DNA of 21,993 nucleotides from Candidatus Aerophobota bacterium. GTDB taxonomy: Bacteria; Aerophobota; Aerophobia; Aerophobales; B3-G15. The stretch lies in the NCBI GenBank assembly GCA_014859225.1, contig JACUUP010000014.1:1-21993 (forward strand), in the 5' to 3' direction. Below the pieces are notes generated by a model that did not search any database, was not told the DNA's origin, and saw nothing but the letters and a program-made list of their open reading frames with translations. A program made the position numbers and the translations under genes. The number at the start of each line of letters is the position of its first letter. Position 1 is the first letter of the stretch. Shown here in pieces: positions 3 through 16,131 of the stretch.

Positions 3-3000
3 AATGAACAGGCGGTTGAGCTTGCAAGAGCTTTGCAGGAGAAAAACATTTTAGTTTTTATGGCATCGTCATCCAACGGAAAAAGCATGGCTGAGCAGCT
101 GGCTGAGGAAGGAATTGAGATGAACTGGGATACCTTCCTTGTTCCTTACGGGAAGGATACATCGGCCGCGGTTCTTGCGTTAAATTTTGCGGCAAGGTCG
201 GCTATGACCTTTGGTGGAATAAAACCCGGTGATTTTGAAGCTGCAAGAAAGATTTTGCTTTACAATAAAGACAGGGTGCATGCCTTTGTTCTTGCCTTAG
301 GAGCCGACCCGGAGGTAAACGGGACCGGTCAACTGATCACTGATGAGAAATATGCAACTGCGGCCGGGGCAATTAACTTTGGTTTTCCTTGCCTTTCTGA
401 TATAAATATACCCCAGATTCTTCCCACAGGTATTTGCACTTATGAGCACGTTGTATCAGGTATCTCCTTGGATAAAATAGTGACCAAAGCCGTTGAAGTA
501 AGAGGGCTTGAAATAAAGGTCACCGAGATTCCCATACCTGTCCCCTACGGAGCAGGATTTGAAGGTGAGCGAGTCAGGAAAGAACAGATGCAGGTTGAAT
601 TTGGCGGGAAAAAAAGCATCGCTTTTGAACTTTTAAGAGGTCGCTCTATGGACCAGGTGGAAGATGGCAAAATTGAGGTTATAGGTCCTGATGTTGATGA
701 GATGGAGGAAGGTGCTGCTTATAATCTTGGTACGCTGGTGCAAGTTGCGGGAAGACAGTTCAGTGAAGATTTTGAAACTGTGCTTGAGCGAAGAATTCAT
801 GAGTTTATATCCTGTGCCAATGGAATATTCCATATGGGGCAAAGAGCCATTGCCTGGATAAGAATAAGCAAAGAGGCCTACCAGAAAGGATTTAGACTGA
901 AACACCTTGGAGAAATACTCGTAGCTAAGATTAAAGATGAGTACTCAAAGATTGTAGATAAAGTCCAGGTTAAACTAATTACCGATGAGGAGAAAATAAA
1001 GGAGCTGCTTGAGGCGGCAAGAAAAATTTATCATGAAAGAGATGAGAGGTTAGGTGGAATGACCGACGAAGATGTAGATGAGTTTTTTAGTTGCATTCTC
1101 TGTGTTCCCGGGGAAGAGACTATCCTTCTGCCTGATGGTTCTTTTAAGAGCGTGGAAAACCTCTTTGATGAGGCATCCTTTAAATATGTCTTGTCTTTAA
1201 ACAGTCACGATTTTCAGGCTCAATCTGTGGAAGAGCTTTTTCTTAATCCTGCCCCATCAAAGCTGATAAAGATTACTTTAAGTAACGGGAATTCTCTTGC
1301 TCTTACTCCCAACCATAATCTTCTGGTAGATAAAAAGGAGGCTCTTGAATGGTTGAGGGCTTCAGAGTTGAAAATCGGTGATTGGCTTATGTCTCCCCTG
1401 ACAAGCGCTATTGATAAAGGGAGGGATAAAGAGCCCTATGTGATAGATTTCTTATCTCCAGAAATCAAGGTCTGTGATGACGAGGCTCTTTTCTCTTTAA
1501 AGGGATCTATTCTTAGAAAGTATGAGACTCTAAGTAAGGGAGCTTCCAAGTTAGGTATTGATTATCAAAAGCTCTACCAGGCTTTAAGAATAGGGGAAAA
1601 GGTTGCTCGAAGAAGGTTAAGTCTAAAAGAAGTTAAATCAATTTGTGAAAAGCTAACAATTTCCTGGAATGAGTTTAAAACACGGATAAAAGAATTAGGA
1701 ATAGGCAAAGGATGTAGATTAAATGAAAACATTTTAAATGAGGAGTTTTTATATGTGGCTGGATTGGTAGCCTCCGATGGCTGTATTATTAAGAGAGGAA
1801 AAAGCAGTTATGTCCAGTTCACCAATGCTGAAAAAACTTTAGTGGATAGATTCGGGCAGATTGTTTGCAACTGGCTGGGAGTGCACCCCAAAGTTTATGA
1901 GGTAGAGCCTGCTGTATCCATTTCCAAGGGAGTGGAGGTTAGAGGGAGACAAAAAGTTTTTGTCTGCCATGTTCATAATCCTCTCTTAGGACAGATTCTG
2001 ATGGGGTTGGGAGTTAGAAAGAATAGGGGATGGAACGGCGAAAGTATTTCCTCCCTTTCCTCAAGTTTAGTTGCTTCGTTTATCAGGGGACTTTTTGACG
2101 GTGATGGTCATGTAACCAAAGAGCATATTTTTATCTCCACCGGGGACTACAAAGAAGCACAACATATTCATCTTTTGTTGAAAAAGTTAGGGATCTCCTC
2201 TTACATAACCAAAACCACCCGTGGGTACCAGATAGGAACCAGAAGTTTTAATGATGTAGAGAAATTCAGAGCCCTGATATCTTCCCAGCATCCTGCTAAG
2301 TTGCAAAAGATGGAAGAGGTGCTATCACATCGTGACAAAAATCATGTCATACGCACAGATACCGTTCCCTACCTTTGCGGAAGATTGATAGAGAATCTTG
2401 TCCAAAAATATCAAAAGAAACTCCAGATAACCAAACTATCTGTTGATTATAAAACCATTAAAAATTGGATTGCGGGAAAACATCGTATATCCCGGGAAAA
2501 GTTGAAACTGTTGTTGGATGATTTAAAAGAAATAGTTGAGCCCTGTGATTATAACTACAGGGAACTTTTATCCTGGTACAATTCAAGGGCGAGCTTCGAA
2601 AGAATAAAAGATATACAAGAAGTTAAATACTTAGACTCCCGCGTTTACAATTTCAGTGTTAAAAATACGCATAACTACCTGGTAAATGGTGTGGTAGTGA
2701 AAAACTGTCAGTCCTATGCACCGAATCATGTTTGCATTGTAACCCCTGAAAGATTAGGACTTTGCGGAGCCTATACCACGCTTGATTGTAAGGCATCCTA
2801 CCAGATAAATCCCCATGGACCTAATGAACCAGTGAAGAAGGGAAAATGTCTTGACCCGGTTAAAGGTCAGTGGGAAGGGATAAATGAGTATCTTAAGGTT
2901 AAATCAAATGGAAACCTGGAAAAATTTAATGCCTACTCCATGCTGGAGGACCCAATGACTTCGTGTGGCTGCTTCGAGTGTATTGTGGCACTTTTACCTG

Positions 3001-3368
3001 AGGCAAATGGTGTAATGATTGTTAACAGGGAATTTTCGGGTATGACTCCTGTGGGAATGACCTTTAGCACCATGGCCGGACAGGTGGGAGGTGGGGTGCA
3101 GACTCCTGGATTTATTGGTATTGGTAAGCTCTATATAACAAGTAAAAAATTTATCTCTGCCGAAGGTGGTTTAAAGCGAGTTGTCTGGATGCCAGATATG
3201 CTCAAGGAGGAGATAAAAGAAAGATTACAGAAAAGGCTTGAGGAGATAGGAGAACCCGACTTAATGGAAAAAATAGCAAGCGAGAAAGATGCTACGACCA
3301 CAGAGGAGCTGCTTGAATTTTTGCAGAAAAAAAATCATCCGGCCCTTTCAATGGAACCAATGATGTAA
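3..3368 (+). CDS. acsB: Acetyl-CoA synthase (CODH/ACS beta subunit), 5'-partial, intein-containing
   Basis: AcsB condenses a methyl group from the corrinoid protein with CO and CoA to make acetyl-CoA at the Ni-Ni-Fe4S4 A-cluster. The reading frame is open from base 3 at the left edge, so the N-terminus lies outside; about 140 residues are missing relative to the roughly 730-residue Moorella enzyme. The TTG at 33 is only an internal codon. The A-cluster ligands are visible: FFSCIL before the intein, then CQSYAPNHVC and GLCGA after it (the four Fe4S4 cysteines), and the distal-nickel CGC motif at 2964-2972. The host coding sequence is interrupted at 1101-2705 by an in-frame intein; removing it leaves about 586 visible host residues with a continuous, well conserved A-cluster motif. 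The C-terminus (MEPMM) is complete. The gene leads the acs operon and is followed 18 bases later by acsC. The family call is very secure. Confidence 0.96.
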   Translation, partial: NEQAVELARALQEKNILVFMASSSNGKSMAEQLAEEGIEMNWDTFLVPYGKDTSAAVLALNFAARSAMTFGGIKPGDFEAARKILLYNKDRVHAFVLALGADPEVNGTGQLITDEKYATAAGAINFGFPCLSDINIPQILPTGICTYEHVVSGISLDKIVTKAVEVRGLEIKVTEIPIPVPYGAGFEGERVRKEQMQVEFGGKKSIAFELLRGRSMDQVEDGKIEVIGPDVDEMEEGAAYNLGTLVQVAGRQFSEDFETVLERRIHEFISCANGIFHMGQRAIAWIRISKEAYQKGFRLKHLGEILVAKIKDEYSKIVDKVQVKLITDEEKIKELLEAARKIYHERDERLGGMTDEDVDEFFSCILCVPGEETILLPDGSFKSVENLFDEASFKYVLSLNSHDFQAQSVEELFLNPAPSKLIKITLSNGNSLALTPNHNLLVDKKEALEWLRASELKIGDWLMSPLTSAIDKGRDKEPYVIDFLSPEIKVCDDEALFSLKGSILRKYETLSKGASKLGIDYQKLYQALRIGEKVARRRLSLKEVKSICEKLTISWNEFKTRIKELGIGKGCRLNENILNEEFLYVAGLVASDGCIIKRGKSSYVQFTNAEKTLVDRFGQIVCNWLGVHPKVYEVEPAVSISKGVEVRGRQKVFVCHVHNPLLGQILMGLGVRKNRGWNGESISSLSSSLVASFIRGLFDGDGHVTKEHIFISTGDYKEAQHIHLLLKKLGISSYITKTTRGYQIGTRSFNDVEKFRALISSQHPAKLQKMEEVLSHRDKNHVIRTDTVPYLCGRLIENLVQKYQKKLQITKLSVDYKTIKNWIAGKHRISREKLKLLLDDLKEIVEPCDYNYRELLSWYNSRASFERIKDIQEVKYLDSRVYNFSVKNTHNYLVNGVVVKNCQSYAPNHVCIVTPERLGLCGAYTTLDCKASYQINPHGPNEPVKKGKCLDPVKGQWEGINEYLKVKSNGNLEKFNAYSMLEDPMTSCGCFECIVALLPEANGVMIVNREFSGMTPVGMTFSTMAGQVGGGVQTPGFIGIGKLYITSKKFISAEGGLKRVVWMPDMLKEEIKERLQKRLEEIGEPDLMEKIASEKDATTTEELLEFLQKKNHPALSMEPMM
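1101..2705 (+). mobile_element. LAGLIDADG homing-endonuclease intein inside AcsB
   Basis: This is an in-frame protein-splicing element of 535 residues. It begins with Cys1 (CVPGEETIL, a typical block A) and ends VVVKN, followed by host Cys+1. Block B is seen as TPNH (Thr69, His72 of the intein), block F as VYNFSV followed by THNYL (His524), and block G as NGVVVKN. The two endonuclease motifs are VAGLVASDG (1755-1781, acidic residue at intein position 226) and FIRGLFDGDG (2079-2108, acidic residue at 335), so both catalytic aspartates are kept and the homing enzyme looks intact. Two helix-turn-helix-like stretches flank the endonuclease core (about residues 140-191 and 434-480). Splicing would join CIL to CQSYAP, restoring the A-cluster motif. 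The penultimate residue is Lys instead of the usual His. Boundaries come from the host motif and the intein blocks and are secure to the residue. Confidence 0.95.
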
Positions 3369-3386: not shown

Positions 3387-4751
3387 ATGGCTTTAACGGG
3401 ATTACAAATTTATAAACTTTTACCTAAGACTAACTGTGGAGATTGTAATTTTCCTACCTGCATGGCTTTTGCTATGCAAGTGGCGGCGAAGAAGGTTGCC
3501 TTGAATCAGTGTCCTCATGCAAGCGAAGAGGCAAGAGCAGAGCTTGCCGAGGCATCAGCTCCACCCATGAAGCTTGTAACGATTGGCACTGACCACAATA
3601 AGGTAGAGGTGGGACAGGAAACAGTACTTTTCAGACATAAGGAGAAATTCCATCACCCAACCGGGATAGCTGTTTTAGTTGAGGATACCCTGACCGATAG
3701 TCAGCTGGATGATGAGATAAGCTCTATAAACAAACTAAAGTTTACCCGGGTGGGGGAGGAAATAAGCGTAAATTTTGTAGCCCTGCAGCACAAATCAACA
3801 ACTGCCAGGGATTATGCTAACTTAACCGAGAAGGTTGTAGAGAAGAGCGATTTTCCACTCATCCTTATCTGCAAAGACCCATCCATTATGGAATCTGCCT
3901 TAAAAATAGCCGGTAACAGAAAACCCTTGCTTTATGCTGCTACCAAAAAAAATTATGAAAAAATGGCTTCCCTTGCTAAAGAATTTAACTGCCCTCTTGC
4001 AGTTTATGCTGAGAGCTTAGAAGAGCTTGCTGCTCTTACCCAGGATGTAAAGAAAATTGGAGTGGACGAGCTTGTTCTTGACCCGGGTTCCAGAGAGCCA
4101 AAAACAGCTCTTGATAATTTAACCAGGCTAAGGAGATTAGCGGTTGAGAAAACTTTCCGTCCCGTAGGATATCCTACGATAATTTTTACGGGTGAGAGCG
4201 ACTCTTTTCAGGAGATTATTCAAGCATCTACTTATGTGTGCAAGTATGCAAATATTGTGGCTTTAAGTGCAAAAACTTCCTGGCAAATTTTACCACTTTT
4301 AACCGTGAGACAAAATATCTATACTGACCCTCAGGTGCCTAACGCGGTTGAATCCAGGCTTTATGAAATAGGGGCAGTGACACCAACCTCACCCCTGCTT
4401 GTAACTACTAATTTTTCCCTTACCTATTTTACCGTAGAATCAGAAGTTGAAAATAGTAAAGTTCCTGCTTATATATGTTCTGTAGATACTGAAGGTATGG
4501 GTGTTTTAAATGCCTATGCCGGGGATAAATGGTCTGCGGAGAAAGCTGCAAAAACTTTAGAGCAGCAAAAAGCAAGAGAAAAGATAAGCCACAATACTGT
4601 AATTATTCCTGGTCTTGTTGCTGTTTTCAGAGCAGAGCTCATTGATGAATTTGGATGGGATGTGCTCGTTGGCCCGGAAGATGCGGCCCGCATCCCCAGT
4701 TTTCTAAAAAATGAGTGGAAGGGATATATGAGCAAAAAAGAGCAAAGATGA
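3387..4751 (+). CDS. acsC: Corrinoid iron-sulfur protein large (gamma) subunit
   Basis: This is the large subunit of the corrinoid iron-sulfur protein. With AcsD it carries the methyl group on cobalt from AcsE to acetyl-CoA synthase. The N-terminal domain has the Fe4S4 signature CGDC-x4-C followed by NQCPH (Cys17, 20, 25, 42), the low-potential cluster that keeps cobalt reducible. The central part is the TIM-barrel domain, and the C-terminal part (about residues 320-454) is the corrinoid-binding region. Length is 454 residues, close to the roughly 446 of the Moorella protein. A strong ribosome binding site (aaggaggg) precedes the ATG. The gene follows acsB by 18 bases and overlaps acsV by an ATGA. 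I see no defect. Confidence 0.96.
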   Translation: MALTGLQIYKLLPKTNCGDCNFPTCMAFAMQVAAKKVALNQCPHASEEARAELAEASAPPMKLVTIGTDHNKVEVGQETVLFRHKEKFHHPTGIAVLVEDTLTDSQLDDEISSINKLKFTRVGEEISVNFVALQHKSTTARDYANLTEKVVEKSDFPLILICKDPSIMESALKIAGNRKPLLYAATKKNYEKMASLAKEFNCPLAVYAESLEELAALTQDVKKIGVDELVLDPGSREPKTALDNLTRLRRLAVEKTFRPVGYPTIIFTGESDSFQEIIQASTYVCKYANIVALSAKTSWQILPLLTVRQNIYTDPQVPNAVESRLYEIGAVTPTSPLLVTTNFSLTYFTVESEVENSKVPAYICSVDTEGMGVLNAYAGDKWSAEKAAKTLEQQKAREKISHNTVIIPGLVAVFRAELIDEFGWDVLVGPEDAARIPSFLKNEWKGYMSKKEQR

Positions 4752-6667
4752 AAAAAGATATAGCCAAGGTAACTTTTCTGCCAGAGGGCGAAACTATTGA
4801 GGTAGAAAAGGGGGTAAGTTTACTTGAGGCATCTACAAGGGCTGGTGTTTATGTTAGCTCAATTTGTGGTGGGGATGGAATCTGTGGAAAGTGCAGACTG
4901 ATTGTTAAGAAAGGCGAGGTTAAAACAAGACCCACAACGCTTCTTGCCAGGGAAGATATAAAGAGAGGTTATGTTCTTGCCTGCCAGAGTGAAGTTGTGG
5001 GAGATGTGGAGGTTGAGGTTCCACCTGAATCCAGAATAGAAGGTAAAATTCTCATAGACATGGACGCCCAGCGTTTCAGAGCTTTATATGCTCCCATGAA
5101 GGAGCAGGTTACATTCAGGTATGAGCCTCTTGTTCAAAAAATTTATCTGGAACTTCCTCCTGCCACCTTACAGGATAATATTTCTGACCATGCTCGTCTT
5201 TATCGTGAGATAAGACGCCATAAAAAAATTGAGAATATGCAAACAGGGCTTAAAGTAATAAGGGGCCTTCCTCATATTTTAAGAGAAGCAGGCTGGAAGG
5301 TTACTACAACTTTAGGAGTTAGGGGGGCAACCACAGAGGTCATTCAGGTGGAAAAAGGAAACACAAAAGATAAAAATTTTGCTATAGCTATTGATGTTGG
5401 GACATCTACAGTTGTAGCACATCTTGTTAACCTGAACACATCAGAGACAATAGATGCGGAGGCAACTTACAACTCTCAGCGCGTATACGGGGAGGAGGTT
5501 ACAAGAAGAATAATTTATGCCGAGCTAAAGGGTGCAGATAAATTGAGGGAAGTTATTGTGGAGGATATTAACAACTTAATATCAATTCTTGTCTCTCGCA
5601 ACAATATTCGCCTTAATGATATTATGGGCTTAGTTTGTGTGGGAAATACCGCCATGATTCATTTTCTCTTAGGACTTGACCCTTCCCGCATAAGAAAAGA
5701 ACCTTACATTCCGGTCTGTACATATCCTCCACCTATAAGAGCAGCAGAGGTGGGGATAAAGATAAACCCCCGGGGACTTTTATATTCCATCCCAGGTATT
5801 GCAAGCTGGGTAGGTGCAGATATTACTGCGGGTATTTTAGCTACAGGGATTTATCAGGTAGAAGAGCTTTGTATACTTATAGATATAGGAACAAATGGTG
5901 AGATAGTTATTGGAAACAAAGAGTGGATGGTGTGCTGCTCTGCATCAGCCGGTCCTGCTTTTGAGGGAAGCGGTGTTAAAAGTGGAATGAGGGCGGGGGA
6001 AGGTGCCATAGAGAGGCTTGAAATTACCGAACAGGGGAAGGTGAGATATACAACCATCGGGGGAGGCAGGCCTCGTGGTATCTGCGGTTCAGGGTTAATT
6101 GATATTATGGCACAGCTTTTTAAGGCAGGATTTGTGGATAGGGCAGGTCGTCTTAGAGCAGGGATTGATGGTAGGGTGAGAGAACAGGATGGGGAGTTTG
6201 AATTTCTGGTAGTTCCTGCCTCTCAGACTGATGGAGATGATATAGTTATAACTCAACCAGATATAGAGAACCTCCTCAGGGCAAAGGCAGCTATTTTTGC
6301 TGCAGTTAATATCTTAATTAAATCTTTAAATATTGAATTTTCTGATATTAAAAGAGTACATATTGCCGGAGGATTCGGTAACTACCTTAGTAAGGAAAAT
6401 GCAATAACCCTTGGCCTTATACCTGATATAGATAGAGAAAAAATACAGTTTGTGGGTAATACTTCTATCCTGGGAGCGAAGATGGCACTTTTATCCCGAC
6501 AGGCTTTTGATACCTGCTATAAGATAGCTAAAAGAATAACTTACTACGATTTAATTACCTATCCAGGATATATGGATGAGTTTATGTCGGCAAAATTTTT
6601 GCCTCATACCAATGGAAACAGGTTTCCCTCAGTGACAGAAATGAAAAAAGTAGAAAAGGGGGTTTAA
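4748..6667 (+). CDS. acsV: Reductive activator of the corrinoid iron-sulfur protein (RACo), ferredoxin/ASKHA protein
   Basis: RACo uses ATP to reduce inactive Co(II) corrinoid back to Co(I), returning AcsCD to the methyl-transfer cycle. The N-terminal 2Fe-2S domain shows Cys40, Cys46, Cys49 (CGGDGICGKC) and Cys79 (LACQS). A linker and middle domain follow, then a large ASKHA-type ATPase domain (DUF4445 family) from about residue 213, with the phosphate-binding loop AIDVGTSTVVAH, a second loop at IDIGTNGEIV and the adenosine motif HIAGGFGNYL. I choose the ATG at 4748, which overlaps the acsC stop as ATGA and gives 639 residues. A GTG at 4715 is in frame but would add 11 unconserved residues lying inside acsC. 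The Shine-Dalgarno is weak, so translation is probably coupled to acsC. Confidence 0.94.
   Translation: MKKDIAKVTFLPEGETIEVEKGVSLLEASTRAGVYVSSICGGDGICGKCRLIVKKGEVKTRPTTLLAREDIKRGYVLACQSEVVGDVEVEVPPESRIEGKILIDMDAQRFRALYAPMKEQVTFRYEPLVQKIYLELPPATLQDNISDHARLYREIRRHKKIENMQTGLKVIRGLPHILREAGWKVTTTLGVRGATTEVIQVEKGNTKDKNFAIAIDVGTSTVVAHLVNLNTSETIDAEATYNSQRVYGEEVTRRIIYAELKGADKLREVIVEDINNLISILVSRNNIRLNDIMGLVCVGNTAMIHFLLGLDPSRIRKEPYIPVCTYPPPIRAAEVGIKINPRGLLYSIPGIASWVGADITAGILATGIYQVEELCILIDIGTNGEIVIGNKEWMVCCSASAGPAFEGSGVKSGMRAGEGAIERLEITEQGKVRYTTIGGGRPRGICGSGLIDIMAQLFKAGFVDRAGRLRAGIDGRVREQDGEFEFLVVPASQTDGDDIVITQPDIENLLRAKAAIFAAVNILIKSLNIEFSDIKRVHIAGGFGNYLSKENAITLGLIPDIDREKIQFVGNTSILGAKMALLSRQAFDTCYKIAKRITYYDLITYPGYMDEFMSAKFLPHTNGNRFPSVTEMKKVEKGV
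6654..6662 (+). promoter_or_regulatory. Ribosome binding site that points to an ACG start
   Basis: An A/G-rich run, aaaaggggg, ends six bases before the ACG at 6669. No other start candidate lies at ribosome-binding distance from it. This is the main evidence that translation of the downstream ATPase begins at 6669 and not at the TTG at 6738. Confidence 0.5.
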
Positions 6668-6668
6668 G

Positions 6669-7439
6669 ACGAGTAAAAAGATTGTTTGCACGGGAAGAGG
6701 TGGAACGGGAAAAACAACTTTTGTAGCTTTAGCAGCTTTGTGTCTCAATTCACATCCCTTGCTTATTGATGCAGATTCTGATATGAGTCTTGCTGATATG
6801 TTAGGGGTTGACCTCCAGAAGGAAAGGATAAAGACTATCTCTGAGGCTCTTTTTGATATTCAAAAAGAACAAACAGATAAAGAGTTAAAATCAATAAGTT
6901 TACCTGAGAAAATAGAGTATCTGATTAATACCTCGTGCTTATATGAATCAGAAAAATTTGATATGATGAGCCTGGGGGTCAAATGGACCCAGGGTTGTTA
7001 CTGTATGCCTAATAATATTTTAAGAGAAGTTGTCTCTAAAATGGCTATGAGCTACACTTATACTATTATAGACTCTCCCGGAGGACTGGAACATATTAAC
7101 AGAAGAATAGTTTCCCAGGTGCAGGATGTATTTGTGATATTAGACCCTTCAAGGAAAGCTTTAAATAATGTGGAGCGGATAAAAAAAATTGCTTCTGAGA
7201 TTGGGATTCATTATGACAATCTTTACCTTATAGCCAATCACAAATTTGACGAAGAAAAAGAAAAATATTTCAAGAGTATGGGTGAGGGTTATTTGGGCAG
7301 GATAGAGTATGATGCGAAGCTGGAGGAGTATACCTGGAAGGGGAGGTCTTTGTTTGAGTTACCGAAAGACTCACCCGCTCTTTGTTCTGTCAGGGAAATT
7401 CTCAAGGGGTCGCTCAAGGGGTCAGGTCTTGCAATATAA
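6669..7439 (+). CDS. acsF: CooC/AcsF-type nickel-insertion MinD-like ATPase, apparent ACG start
   Basis: This is a P-loop ATPase of the MinD/CooC group, thought to load nickel into CO dehydrogenase or acetyl-CoA synthase. The Walker A loop is GRGGTGKTT (residues 9-17), with Arg where most CooC proteins have the signature Lys. The next motif is LIDADSD, and a Cys-x-Cys (GCYC, residues 110 and 112) matches the metal-binding CxC of CooC at the dimer interface. The frame contains no ATG, GTG, TTG or CTG that would keep the P-loop: the first is the TTG at 6738, downstream of it. With ACG at 6669 the protein would begin as (M)SKKIVCTG, one base after the acsV stop and behind a good Shine-Dalgarno. 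Either ACG is used as a start or ATG was lost by a T-to-C change. The last 10 or so residues (LKGSLKGSGLAI) run into a palindromic insertion and probably replace the native end. The name could equally be cooC. Confidence 0.85.
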   Translation, partial: TSKKIVCTGRGGTGKTTFVALAALCLNSHPLLIDADSDMSLADMLGVDLQKERIKTISEALFDIQKEQTDKELKSISLPEKIEYLINTSCLYESEKFDMMSLGVKWTQGCYCMPNNILREVVSKMAMSYTYTIIDSPGGLEHINRRIVSQVQDVFVILDPSRKALNNVERIKKIASEIGIHYDNLYLIANHKFDEEKEKYFKSMGEGYLGRIEYDAKLEEYTWKGRSLFELPKDSPALCSVREILKGSLKGSGLAI

Positions 7440-7510
7440 CATTTGGGTATTTATGTAGTTCATGTAGTAGATTGAAAGTGAGTAGATGTGATATTGCAAG
7501 ACCTGACCCC
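7418..7510. repeat. Long inverted repeat (REP/MITE-like palindrome) between acsF and acsD
   Basis: The left arm at 7418-7437 (ggggtcaggtcttgcaatat) is the exact reverse complement of the right arm at 7491-7510. With one mismatch the pairing continues four or five bases inward (acat at 7439-7442 with atgt at 7486-7489). The intervening stretch is about 45 bases and contains two imperfect atgtagt repeats. The left arm supplies the last codons and stop region of acsF; the right arm ends just before the acsD ribosome binding site. From memory, GGGGTCAGGTCTTG palindromes recur between genes in some environmental bacteria alongside Y1 (REP-associated) transposases, so a mobile palindrome is my favoured reading. 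In RNA it would form a stable hairpin inside the operon. No T-tract follows, so it is not a typical terminator. Confidence 0.8.
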
Positions 7511-7527
7511 AAAATAAGGAGGGTAAT

Positions 7528-8490
7528 ATGCAGATTCCTGATGTTAAACAAAAATGGCCCAATCCAATAAATGAGGTAACCATAGGAGCCACGAAAGAGG
7601 AGGGAGGGACAAGGTCCCATACCATTACTGTGGGAGGGGCTAATAGCTTGCCTTTCCTTTACTTTGAAGGAGAGCTGCCTCATCCTCCGGTAATAGCGCT
7701 GGAAGTCTGGGATGTAGCTCCTAAAGATTGGCCTGAGGAGCTGGCAAAATATTTTTCTGATGTGTGGGATGATGCGGGGAAATGGGCAAAAAAATGTGTA
7801 GATGAGTTTGGAGCAGACCTTGTTTGCTTGAGACTTCAGGGCTGCGACCCGGATGGAGAAAATAAAGGTTCTGATGAGGCGGCTGCGGCAGTTAAAAAGG
7901 TTTTAGAATCTGTCAGCGCCCCTCTTATTATCTTTGGATGTGGCAGTGATGAAAAAGATAATGAGGTATTTCCTGCTTGCTCTCAAGCTGCTGCAGGAGA
8001 GAGGTGTCTTCTTGGTAGCATAACTGAGGACAACTACAAAACACTTGTAGCTTTGTGTAAGGCTGACAGGCATAAACTGATTGCGGAATCACCTGTAGAT
8101 ATAAATATAGCCAAGCAGGTTAATATTTTAGCTACCGATATTGGTCTTGCTCCGGAGGATATTGTCATTTATCCAACCACCGGTGCTTTAGGATACGGAA
8201 TTGAATATGTTTACTCAATTATGGAGAGGGGACGCATAGCGGGATTATCGGGAGATAAAATGTGGGCTATGCCTATTTTAGGAGATATTGGAAAAGAGGT
8301 CTGGAAAGTAAAGGAAGCAAAAGCTTTGCAAAAAGAAGTTCCTGAATGGGGAGATCATACTCAAAGAGGTCCTCTATGGGAAGCTATTACCGCTACGGTC
8401 TATCTTCAAGCAGGTTCTGATATTTTAATTATGCGCCATCCAAAAGCTGTAGCAGAGACTAAAAAATATATTGAAAGTTTAACCGGATAA
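7528..8490 (+). CDS. acsD: Corrinoid iron-sulfur protein small (delta) subunit
   Basis: This is the small subunit of the corrinoid iron-sulfur protein, a TIM-barrel protein that caps the cobamide together with AcsC. Length is 320 residues, matching the family (about 310-325). Recognisable stretches are the N-terminal WPNPINEVTIGAT, the VGGANSLPFLYFEG region, VIALEVWD, DLVCLRLQGCDPD and the C-terminal ILIMRHPKAV. The ATG has a near-ideal ribosome binding site (aaggaggg at 7516-7523) only a few bases after the right arm of the inverted repeat. The element therefore left the translation signal intact. The gene is followed by acsE after a 31-base gap. Confidence 0.95.
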   Translation: MQIPDVKQKWPNPINEVTIGATKEEGGTRSHTITVGGANSLPFLYFEGELPHPPVIALEVWDVAPKDWPEELAKYFSDVWDDAGKWAKKCVDEFGADLVCLRLQGCDPDGENKGSDEAAAAVKKVLESVSAPLIIFGCGSDEKDNEVFPACSQAAAGERCLLGSITEDNYKTLVALCKADRHKLIAESPVDINIAKQVNILATDIGLAPEDIVIYPTTGALGYGIEYVYSIMERGRIAGLSGDKMWAMPILGDIGKEVWKVKEAKALQKEVPEWGDHTQRGPLWEAITATVYLQAGSDILIMRHPKAVAETKKYIESLTG

Positions 8491-8521
8491 ATAAAACAAC
8501 CGAGAATTATGGAGGATAACG

Positions 8522-9316
8522 ATGATTTTTGTGGGAGAGAGAATAAATGGTGGTTTTAAGGATATCCAGAAGGCTATAAAGGAAAAGGATAAATCCATTA
8601 TCGGGCGCTGGGCTAAAATTCAAACAGAGGCAGGTGCAGATTACTTAGATGTTAATATGGGAGCTCTTTCCAATAAACTGGACGATTTTGTCTGGATGAT
8701 TGAAACTGTTCAGGAAGTGGTATCTACCCCCATCTCTATTGACAGTAACAAGCTTTCTTTTATAGAGAAAGCTATAAAACTTTGCCATAAATCTCCTCTG
8801 ATTAATTCAACTACTGCTGATAAGGAAAAGCTTGATGAGATTATCCCGCTTGCAGTTGAAAGTAACGCCTCTTTAATTGGGTTATGCATGGATAAAAAAG
8901 GAGCCCCACGAGATGCAAACAAAAGAGTGGAACTGGGTGCTACTTTATTTAGTGAAGCTATAGAAAAGGGACTGCCTGAGGATAAACTTTTTCTTGACCC
9001 CATAACTATGCCTTTAAAATTTTTGCAGGAGCAGGCGTCGTCTGTTCTGGAGGCTATTCGCCAGTTTACACTCCTGTCCAGTCCTCCTCCCCACATAATT
9101 ATAGGATTAAGTAACATTTCTTCTCAAACCAAAGAGGAGGAGCTTATCAATCGTATTTTTCTTGTTATGTGTATTGAGGCAGGTCTGGATGCAGCTATAT
9201 GCGATGTTACGGATGAGGAACTGGTGAACTCAGCTATAACTTGTGAGCTTATATTAAACAAACAGATATATTCAGATTCGTTTATAAAAGCTTACAAGGA
9301 AAGCAGAAAGAAATGA
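8522..9316 (+). CDS. acsE: Methyltetrahydrofolate:corrinoid iron-sulfur protein methyltransferase
   Basis: AcsE transfers the methyl group of 5-methyltetrahydrofolate to Co(I) of the corrinoid protein and links the methyl and carbonyl branches of the pathway. It is a single pterin-binding TIM barrel of 264 residues, the usual length being about 262. Folate-site motifs are present: GERINGG at the start, DYLDVNMG, SIDS, LINSTT, FLDPI and GLSNIS, which contain the equivalents of the catalytic and pterin-contacting Asp and Asn residues known from the Moorella enzyme. The ATG follows a ggagg ribosome binding site. The stop overlaps the next gene as ATGA, indicating translational coupling. Confidence 0.95.
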   Translation: MIFVGERINGGFKDIQKAIKEKDKSIIGRWAKIQTEAGADYLDVNMGALSNKLDDFVWMIETVQEVVSTPISIDSNKLSFIEKAIKLCHKSPLINSTTADKEKLDEIIPLAVESNASLIGLCMDKKGAPRDANKRVELGATLFSEAIEKGLPEDKLFLDPITMPLKFLQEQASSVLEAIRQFTLLSSPPPHIIIGLSNISSQTKEEELINRIFLVMCIEAGLDAAICDVTDEELVNSAITCELILNKQIYSDSFIKAYKESRKK

Positions 9317-12942: not shown

Positions 12943-13808
12943 GCGAGGTTCTTTTAGCTTTGCTATATTTTTTGATTTTCCCGGGGTTTCTTTTCACTGC
13001 CGTGATAGGGCTTTTTGCCGCATGGGTAGATAGAAAGGTTACGGCGCGTCTCCAGTGGAGAGTTGGACCACCCTGGTACCAGAATTTCATTGATTTTTTA
13101 AAGTTAATGGGTAAGGAAACGATAATACCTTCTGGTGCAAGGAAAATAACTTTCCTGTCTGCTCCCCTTGTTGGTCTTGTTGGTATTACTCTTGTTTCCT
13201 TAATGCTCTGGCAGATGAATCTTTATCCTGCCACCACTTTTCTGGGAGACCTTATTGTAATCCTTTATCTTTCAATACTTCCCTCCTTAGCTATTATGAT
13301 TGGAGGAGCGGCTTCAGGAAATCCTCTTGCCTCCTTAGGAGCAAGCAGAGAAATAAAACTGTTATTAGCCTATGAGCTTCCCTTTATTGTGGCTATTTTT
13401 ACTCCGGTGGTAATCATTAAAGATATCAGAATAGGCTCCATTGTTTCCTATCAGATAAATCATGGTATGATGTTTACTCATCACATATCCTCCCTTATCG
13501 CTTTGGTGGTCGCATTTATCTGCATGCAGGCAAAATTAACCCTTGCCCCATTTGACATACCTGAGGCTGAACAGGAGATAATGGCCGGGCCTTTAATTGA
13601 ATACTCGGGCCCTTCCCTTGCTATGTTTAAACTTATAAAGGCTATGATGCTTTTTACAGTTCCTGTATTTTTGATTACTGTTTTTGCCGGAGGAATGAGG
13701 TTTGGTGGAATTCAAGCTCTTTATTCAGTTATAAAATATAAAGGCTATGATGCTTTTTACAGTTCCTGTATTTTTGATTACTGTTTTTGCCGGAGGAATG
13801 AGGTTTGA
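12939..13808 (+). CDS. NuoH/HycD/EchB-like membrane subunit, frameshifted C-terminus
   Basis: This is the membrane anchor of group 4 [NiFe] hydrogenases and relative of complex I subunit NuoH, which links the hydrophilic arm to the ion-pumping subunits. Family signatures are VDRKVTARLQWRVGPPW near the N-terminus, ASREIKLLLAYELPF, and PFDIPEAEQEIMAGPLIEYSG. The frame is normal up to VIKY, then a second copy of a 103-bp segment shifts it. It ends with about 20 foreign residues (KGYDAFYSS...CRRNEV), giving 289 residues. The missing last two membrane helices are encoded in another frame up to 13980. Removing one repeat copy would give an intact protein of about 312 residues, the normal family length. 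Either the gene is broken or the duplication is an assembly artefact. Confidence 0.88.
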   Translation: MSEVLLALLYFLIFPGFLFTAVIGLFAAWVDRKVTARLQWRVGPPWYQNFIDFLKLMGKETIIPSGARKITFLSAPLVGLVGITLVSLMLWQMNLYPATTFLGDLIVILYLSILPSLAIMIGGAASGNPLASLGASREIKLLLAYELPFIVAIFTPVVIIKDIRIGSIVSYQINHGMMFTHHISSLIALVVAFICMQAKLTLAPFDIPEAEQEIMAGPLIEYSGPSLAMFKLIKAMMLFTVPVFLITVFAGGMRFGGIQALYSVIKYKGYDAFYSSCIFDYCFCRRNEV

Positions 13809-13843
13809 TGGAATGCAAGCTCTTTATTCAGTTATAAAATATA
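13634..13843 (+). repeat. 103-bp direct tandem duplication inside the NuoH-like gene
   Basis: Bases 13634-13740 align with 13737-13843 at an offset of 103 with only two mismatches (13705 G versus 13808 A; 13712 T versus 13815 G). The copies meet at a shared TATA. As 103 is not a multiple of three, the duplication causes a frameshift. The two differences mean the copies are not a simple identical slip. Confidence 0.97.
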
Positions 13844-14928: not shown

Positions 14929-16131
14929 ATGGCCAGCGATAAAAGAACAATTATTCCCATAGGACCTTTTCATCCTCTCCAGGAAGAGCCTGAGTTTTTT
15001 GAACTTTATGTGGAAGGGGAAAAGGTTGTTGATATAGATGTTCATATAGGCTACAACCACCGTGCTATTGAACAGATTGGTCAGAGAATGAACTGGGACC
15101 AGGTAATTTTTCTTGTGGAAAGAATCTGTGGAATATGCTCCACTTCTCATCCCATTGCTAACTGCAATGCCCAGGAAGACCTTGCTGGAGTAGAGATACC
15201 CGAGAGAGCAAAGTATATAAGAAGTATTGTAGGTGAGCTGGAAAGACTTCACTCTCATCTTCTCTGGGTGGGATTGGCAGGGCATTTCTTAGGGTATAAT
15301 ACCTTATGGATGTGGGCGTGGAAGTATAGAGAACCTATCTTAGAAATTTTTGAGCATGTTACGGGCAACAGGAATCATTATGCTATGATGAGGCCGGGAG
15401 GAGTTAAAAGGGATATAAAGGAGGAAGATATACCCCATCTTACGAAAGTTCTGGATGAGGCAGAGAGAAAAATAGCCATGGTTACCAAAGCAGCTCTTGA
15501 TGACCCTGTTCTTGCTGCTCGGCTTAAAGGTGTTGGAATTCTCACCCAGGAAGATGCCATAAAATACTGTGCTGTTGGTCCAACTGCCAGGGCATCCGGA
15601 GTAGCTATTGATGTTCGCAAAGATGACCCTTATGCCGCCTATGATTTAGTGGAGTGGAATATTATTACTCAAGAAGCAGGAGATGTTTTTGCCAAAGCTG
15701 TGGTGAGACTGCTTGAGTGTTTTGAATCTGTGAAGATAATTCGTCAGTGTCTTGACAAACTTAAGAAGGTGAAGGGAGATATAGCTGTCAAGATAAAAAA
15801 AATGCCCCATGGAGAAGGAAAGGGACATCATGAAGCTCCCAGGGGCGAGACTTTCCACTATGTGCGCTCAGATGGCTCCAATAATCCAGTGAGGGTAAAA
15901 GTGAGAGCTCCAACTTATGTGAATCTTCCTACCTGCAAGGCAACAGTTCCCGGGGAAAGTGTCGCTGATGCTGCTATAATCTTAGCCGCTATAGACCCTT
16001 GCTACTGTTGCACAGAACGGATGATGAGGGTGATGGACAAAAGAGGGGGTAAGGTGGAGCTTGATGGAAATGAGCTGGTGAGGTTATCCCAGGAAAAAAC
16101 CAGAGGACTTCGTAAACAATTAGGGTTATAA
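14929..16131 (+). CDS. Group 4 [NiFe]-hydrogenase large (catalytic) subunit
   Basis: This is the NuoD-related catalytic subunit. Both nickel-binding pairs are present: Cys67 and Cys70 in RICGICSTSH, and Cys358 and Cys361 in DPCYCCTER. It is therefore a true hydrogenase and not complex I NuoD or a cysteine-less relative. Length is 400 residues. Other family motifs are HIGYNHRAIEQIG at the start, MRPGGV, and the ETFHYVRSDGSNNPVRVKVRAPTY block. There is no long C-terminal extension after the second pair beyond about 39 residues, so no maturation-peptide cleavage motif is obvious; several group 4 enzymes lack one. It should evolve or take up H2 on the cytoplasmic face. Confidence 0.95.
   Translation: MASDKRTIIPIGPFHPLQEEPEFFELYVEGEKVVDIDVHIGYNHRAIEQIGQRMNWDQVIFLVERICGICSTSHPIANCNAQEDLAGVEIPERAKYIRSIVGELERLHSHLLWVGLAGHFLGYNTLWMWAWKYREPILEIFEHVTGNRNHYAMMRPGGVKRDIKEEDIPHLTKVLDEAERKIAMVTKAALDDPVLAARLKGVGILTQEDAIKYCAVGPTARASGVAIDVRKDDPYAAYDLVEWNIITQEAGDVFAKAVVRLLECFESVKIIRQCLDKLKKVKGDIAVKIKKMPHGEGKGHHEAPRGETFHYVRSDGSNNPVRVKVRAPTYVNLPTCKATVPGESVADAAIILAAIDPCYCCTERMMRVMDKRGGKVELDGNELVRLSQEKTRGLRKQLGL

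Follow-up and report, generated by a model that had tools for sequence, protein, structure and literature searches.

The acsB gene of a Candidatus Aerophobota bacterium, which encodes acetyl-CoA synthase (ACS), very probably contains a genuine and full-length class 1 LAGLIDADG intein, termed AcsB-a. Together with its sister AcsB-b, it belongs to a small AcsB intein family in Aerophobetes and appears to be a homing-capable element with a refuge in the codons of the A-cluster. The window, i.e. the whole stretch of 21,993 nucleotides that was analyzed, is contig C16 from base 1 and originates from a 1.8 Mb draft genome (G000, 91% complete). Its named relatives from the same phylum are Candidatus Aerophobetes, a group with reported genes of the Wood-Ljungdahl pathway (PMC6472368).

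The frame 3-3368 on the forward strand is open throughout without a stop and encodes 1121 residues. Residues 1-366 and 902-1121 together represent acetyl-CoA synthase (NCBIfam CODH_ACS_al_bet, 851 bits; cut-off 800), and both the four Fe4S4 cysteines and the CGC nickel motif of the AcsB family are present. Because the window begins at the first base of the contig, about 160 N-terminal AcsB residues are outside view. The gene and its intein are organized as follows:

3..1100, +, acsB N-extein, 5' end cut at the contig start (NF040764 residues 2-367; PF03598 178-332)
1092..1094, +, Cys506 equivalent (Cys364; Fe4S4 ligand), intein position -3 (Moorella ACS alignment)
1101..2705, +, AcsB-a intein, 535 residues (367-901), Cys1 to Asn535 (PF14890, TIGR01445, TIGR01443, PF14528)
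1305..1316, +, block B TPNH (TxxH) of the splicing domain, shared by AcsB-a and almost every AcsB-b intein
1749..1784, +, first LAGLIDADG-type motif LYVAGLVASDGC (sequence with conserved acidic residue; predicted domain fold)
2079..2114, +, second LAGLIDADG motif FIRGLFDGDGHV (PF14528 residues 689-759)
2643..2705, +, blocks F and G, VYN..THNYLVNGVVVKN (TIGR01443 881-902; 26-intein comparison)
2706..3368, +, acsB C-extein, holds the majority of the A-cluster ligands (PF19436 residues 901-1121)
2706..2708, +, Cys+1, equivalent of Moorella Cys509, which bridges Fe4S4 and proximal Ni (1oao_C alignment, 902 to 509)
2733..2735, +, Cys518 equivalent (Cys911; Moorella alignment)
2763..2765, +, Cys528 equivalent (Cys921; Moorella alignment)
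2964..2966, +, Cys595 equivalent, i.e. site b, empty here and occupied in G007/L086, G015, G012 and G011
2970..2972, +, Cys597 equivalent (alignment)

Pfam and NCBIfam profiles with exact junctions confirmed the original prediction of a 535-residue LAGLIDADG intein inside acsB. Residues 367-901 cover the entire Intein_splicing profile (E 3e-20) and include a LAGLIDADG_3 match (E 3e-18), and the profiles for the N- and C-terminal intein splicing regions (TIGR01445 and TIGR01443) both scored above their cut-offs. Typical for class 1, the element starts with the nucleophile Cys1 (1101-1103), carries the block B motif TxxH as TPNH in both AcsB-a carriers and ends with Asn followed by Cys+1 (KN/C and RN/C in the carriers; the slash marks the junction). 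A class 3 intein was rejected, as Cys1 is present and position F:4 is Asn rather than Cys. The two LAGLIDADG motifs contain the acidic catalytic residues expected for an endonuclease intein (VASDG and FDGDG), and the predicted fold of this domain matches I-DmoI and PI-PfuI in Foldseek. AlphaFold predictions of the whole precursor and of the intein with its flanks had pLDDT values below 50 around both junctions, and the splicing domain was not modelled reliably.

In the alignment to Moorella ACS (1oao_C, 1mjg_M), the second extein segment places query residue 902 on residue 509. When aligned to a close ACS homologue, both extein segments meet on one Cys, as is expected if Cys1 and Cys+1 share one host position. 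The +1 residue is thus the Cys509 equivalent, and this assignment of the original prediction is borne out. The numbering 506/509/518/528 and 595/597 is that of the established ACS ligand residues and agrees with the alignment. The equivalents of Cys506, Cys518 and Cys528 are invariant in 20 intein-free homologues. In ACS, the Fe4S4 cluster and the proximal nickel are connected through a cysteine, and two more cysteines bridge both nickels (PMC5298270).

With 535 extra residues separating Cys506 and Cys509, the unspliced chain should not bind a normal A-cluster. After translation, Cys1 would attack the Leu-Cys1 bond, the N-extein would be transferred to Cys+1 (the future Cys509), and cyclisation of Asn535 would be accompanied by ligation of the exteins as SCIL-CQSYAPNHVC. 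The ligated segment, with a spliced junction peptide spanning CILCQSYAPNHVC, would then be able to bind the A-cluster. The endonuclease in turn would copy the intein DNA into empty acsB alleles, and the invariant nickel-ligand codons would offer a refuge, since the target is not free to mutate in the host and ACS does not survive an imprecise loss of the element. We infer splicing, endonuclease activity and the inactive precursor. A profile search of the genome itself returned a single PF03598 (CdhC) match, so that splicing is probably needed for a working ACS, although the missing part of this 91% complete genome might hold another copy. The idea that splicing gates the whole pathway therefore stands in one part, the likely need of splicing for ACS, whereas the proposed control by redox state or metals is compatible with the sequence and goes no further.

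Two helper positions of the splicing domain deviate from the canonical pattern. In block F, Asn replaces Asp (F:4), while the His at F:13 is present (THNY), and the penultimate His of block G is replaced by Lys or Arg in the AcsB inteins. In class 1 inteins, the penultimate His is usual but not strictly required, and Asp is the most common residue at F:4. Among the 26 inteins compared, no other has Lys or Arg at the penultimate position, and the VYN motif is found elsewhere only in an IscU intein. Inteins that lack the penultimate His have been documented to splice (Chen et al., 2000, as cited in PMC4031507), which suggests that the AcsB inteins would still be likely to splice, perhaps slowly; the citing article also describes F:4 as a less conserved position. 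The combination of the block-F Asn and a penultimate Lys or Arg could render splicing slow or partial.

To follow the distribution of the intein, 98 genomes were searched. AcsB-a is present in two of eight acsB genes from Aerophobetes, AcsB-b in four and neither in the remaining two (G002 and G009), where the gene is uninterrupted. The examination of other homologues, as suggested originally, revealed the same intein in a second genome, Aerophobetes B47_G16 (G004; QMPZ01000025, L082), which belongs to another family of the same order. Its junctions are identical to those in the window, which makes an assembly join very unlikely, and the two copies share 79% identity (exteins: 85%). In Aerophobetes Ae_b3b (G007; NJBP01000014, L086) and in G015, the intein is located at PMTS/C...LIKN/CGCFEC, directly before the Cys595 equivalent, so that AcsB-b occupies another ligand of the proximal nickel. 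G012 also carries intein b, with the N-terminal junction at a contig edge, and G011 its C-terminal part.

In a collection of 84,980 species, 54 named loci were covered and L082 and L086 are the only interrupted ones among them, even though KLQKMEE, one of two peptides used as queries, comes from intein a itself. The ACS genes found outside Aerophobetes in 386 bacterial genomes and four small further phyla had no intein at either site. Including archaeal CdhC, which was covered by five Methanomicrobiales and Methanoregulaceae loci, no acsB or cdhC gene found in these surveys outside the phylum carries an intein at site a or b. A search of viral contigs for intein a yielded no relative. In line with the original prediction, which knew of no described intein at this site, our literature search found no published description of an intein in acetyl-CoA synthase, and NCBIfam, whose intein-specific models cover other hosts (Tes, RtcB), returned none for AcsB. 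AcsB-a and AcsB-b are hence filed as two new insertion sites in a new host protein for a known kind of element.

The surveys also returned several unusual ACS-related proteins. An ACS-like protein (L042, G032), with similar ones matched in G322 and G186, keeps the C..C...C...C pattern but has TAIPE in place of the distal-nickel motif CGCFE, and it is possibly an ACS paralogue without a dinickel site. At another locus (L029, G060), AcsB and an AcsD-like domain are fused in one open frame of 1171-1183 residues. One Aerophobetes genome (L018, G010) encodes a stand-alone CdhC of the archaeal type (414 aa, 43-44% identity) in place of bacterial AcsB, and an AcsC-like gene follows it.

Comparison of the two AcsB-a copies (G000 and G004) gave a dN/dS of 0.085 (0.06-0.12) for the whole intein, with 0.083 for the splicing part and 0.068 for the LAGLIDADG part (extein: 0.058). 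This purifying selection on both parts argues that splicing and endonuclease activity are probably maintained. The dS of the intein (1.33) is similar to that of the extein (1.64), which gives no sign of recent homing of intein a; either it has been resident for about as long as the host genes have diverged, or it was transferred early. Intein b shows a different picture, with dS values of 0.88 versus 3.0 for the host genes in the pair G007-G015 and 0.24 versus 0.60 in G011-G012. Silent divergence so far below that of the host genes shows that intein b has moved between genera, as homing predicts, and judged by these values it is clearly younger than its host genes. Inteins a and b are reciprocal best matches (~140 bits; at most 56 bits to any other intein among the 26) and sisters with a support of 95/91 in a tree of 26 inteins, which has long branches and samples the inteins met in this analysis only. 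Most likely, one AcsB intein lineage has switched its target inside one gene.

The non-canonical residues of blocks F and G could also speak for an inactive relic that no longer splices, or for an artificial join in the assembly. We regard this reading as highly improbable, since identical junctions occur in an independent metagenome, stops are absent, purifying selection extends across the whole intein, and a loss of splicing would kill the sole ACS found in the genome. The +1 residue of an intein has to be Cys, Ser or Thr, and the covered part of ACS has 15 invariant columns with one of these residues, three of them Ni ligands. Both junctions lie within the top roughly 2% most conserved 10-residue windows of ACS, and Cys509 and Cys595 make up two of the three proximal-Ni ligands. 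The latter finding could indicate that the metal site itself, and not conservation, has selected the two positions. This seems rather improbable to us: with so few eligible columns, two chance hits have p ~0.04 if independent, and inteins a and b are sisters and hence not independent events. Inteins prefer conserved or catalytic sites (PMC2814812), and this rule, which the original prediction had invoked and which the placement in an invariant codon fits, explains most of the siting.

A more far-reaching proposal is conditional splicing, in which the AcsB intein would serve as a post-translational switch for the oxygen-sensitive ACS. Under oxidising conditions, a disulfide between Cys506 (-3) and Cys1, or a metal bound at Cys1 and Cys+1, would block splicing; reducing and metal-appropriate conditions would release the block, so that ACS is formed only when it is workable. 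In the MoaA intein of Pyrococcus abyssi, a native Cys-3/Cys1 disulfide blocks splicing when oxidising (PMC10663303; PMC3922620), and Zn and Cu inhibit some inteins (PMC10663303). The AcsB-a precursor has a Cys at -3 at the sequence level, and its C-I-L-C1 arrangement reproduces the geometry of the MoaA trap; by this analogy, the redox suggestion of the original prediction has a concrete precedent. The atypical helper residues, which the two AcsB inteins have almost to themselves among the 26, could make splicing conditional, and in the same genome PorB, likewise an anaerobic acetyl-CoA enzyme, contains an intein. On the other side, Cys506 is invariant in intein-free ACS and was thus not recruited for a switch, sister intein b lacks a Cys at -3 (EDPMTS), and the presence of the intein is patchy, with relatives managing without it. 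On balance, we consider the switch unlikely. Similarly unlikely is that the AcsB inteins are redox- or metal-responsive switches in which host Cys506 and the future Cys509 form a splicing sensor that grants competence for cluster binding only when the cluster can be built. A homing-capable intein in a conserved codon remains our preferred reading.

Aerophobetes are rich in inteins, with Intein_splicing matches in 15 of 17 genomes. The pyruvate:ferredoxin oxidoreductase beta subunit (PorB) of the genome that carries AcsB-a contains a 366-residue intein (G000:C98; L064:1984-3795) with the junctions YDNGAYMN/C...HN/TGIQRSS in a conserved motif beside GDGGTYDIG. G013 carries it too, and G007 has a mini-intein version. 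PorB is the second anaerobic acetyl-CoA enzyme in G000 that would depend on splicing. Further inteins were observed in a UvrD-type helicase, in RtcB (two different sites) and in ribonucleotide reductases (L065, L066, L069, L071, L072, L073, L077), as well as in the P-loop of the V-type ATPase A subunit (GPFGSGK/C; L039, L040, L041). Inteins in this P-loop are known from archaea.

Downstream of acsB, the ACS operon continues on the same strand (3387..9316, +):

3387-4751, +, acsC (NCBIfam)
4715-6667, +, acsV-like corrinoid activase (NCBIfam)
end at 7439, +, CooC/AcsF-type P-loop ATPase (frame reading)
7528-8490, +, acsD (NCBIfam)
8522-9316, +, acsE (NCBIfam)

The operon is followed by genes for an energy-converting hydrogenase/NuoBCD-like complex that includes Mrp-type antiporter subunits. 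The NuoH/HyfC-like membrane subunit contains a 103-nt tandem duplication (13625-13830; copies 94% identical) that shifts its frame and is either genuine or an artefact of the assembly. The NuoD-like subunit (14929-16131), which adjoins the Mrp-type antiporter genes and has no intein, resembles the large subunit of energy-converting [NiFe] hydrogenases, because the RICGIC and DPCYCC motifs are kept.

In comparison to Moorella and Carboxydothermus AcsB, the Aerophobota protein shares the extein sequence and all A-cluster cysteines, but is interrupted by an intein at Cys509. With class 1 LAGLIDADG inteins of the PI-PfuI and TliVMA type, AcsB-a has Cys1, TxxH, the C-terminal Asn, Cys+1 and a nested endonuclease in common, whereas the block-F Asn, the penultimate Lys/Arg and the new host protein and insertion sites set the AcsB inteins apart. 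The MoaA intein of P. abyssi, whose host is also an oxygen-sensitive Fe-S enzyme, likewise combines a host Cys at -3 with a catalytic Cys1; host and metal centre are different, and the comparison covers the junction geometry. As in the V-ATPase A subunit, two sites of one enzyme are used, both in the catalytic site (PMC2814812), but the ACS sites are metal-cluster ligands and the two ACS alleles are sisters.

The known inteins of bacteria and archaea are concentrated in proteins for replication, repair and recombination (PMC5874633). In the present case, a single lineage has inteins at two of the three ligands of the proximal nickel in ACS, the central Wood-Ljungdahl enzyme. The AcsB intein is real and well supported, and the second site makes the case richer than originally predicted. 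Unless splicing is regulated, the AcsB inteins are mechanistically ordinary. They constitute a natural pair of sister inteins at two positions of one oxygen-sensitive metal centre, one with a Cys at -3 and the other without it, which makes the question of a regulated versus a purely selfish intein directly testable in a metabolic enzyme.
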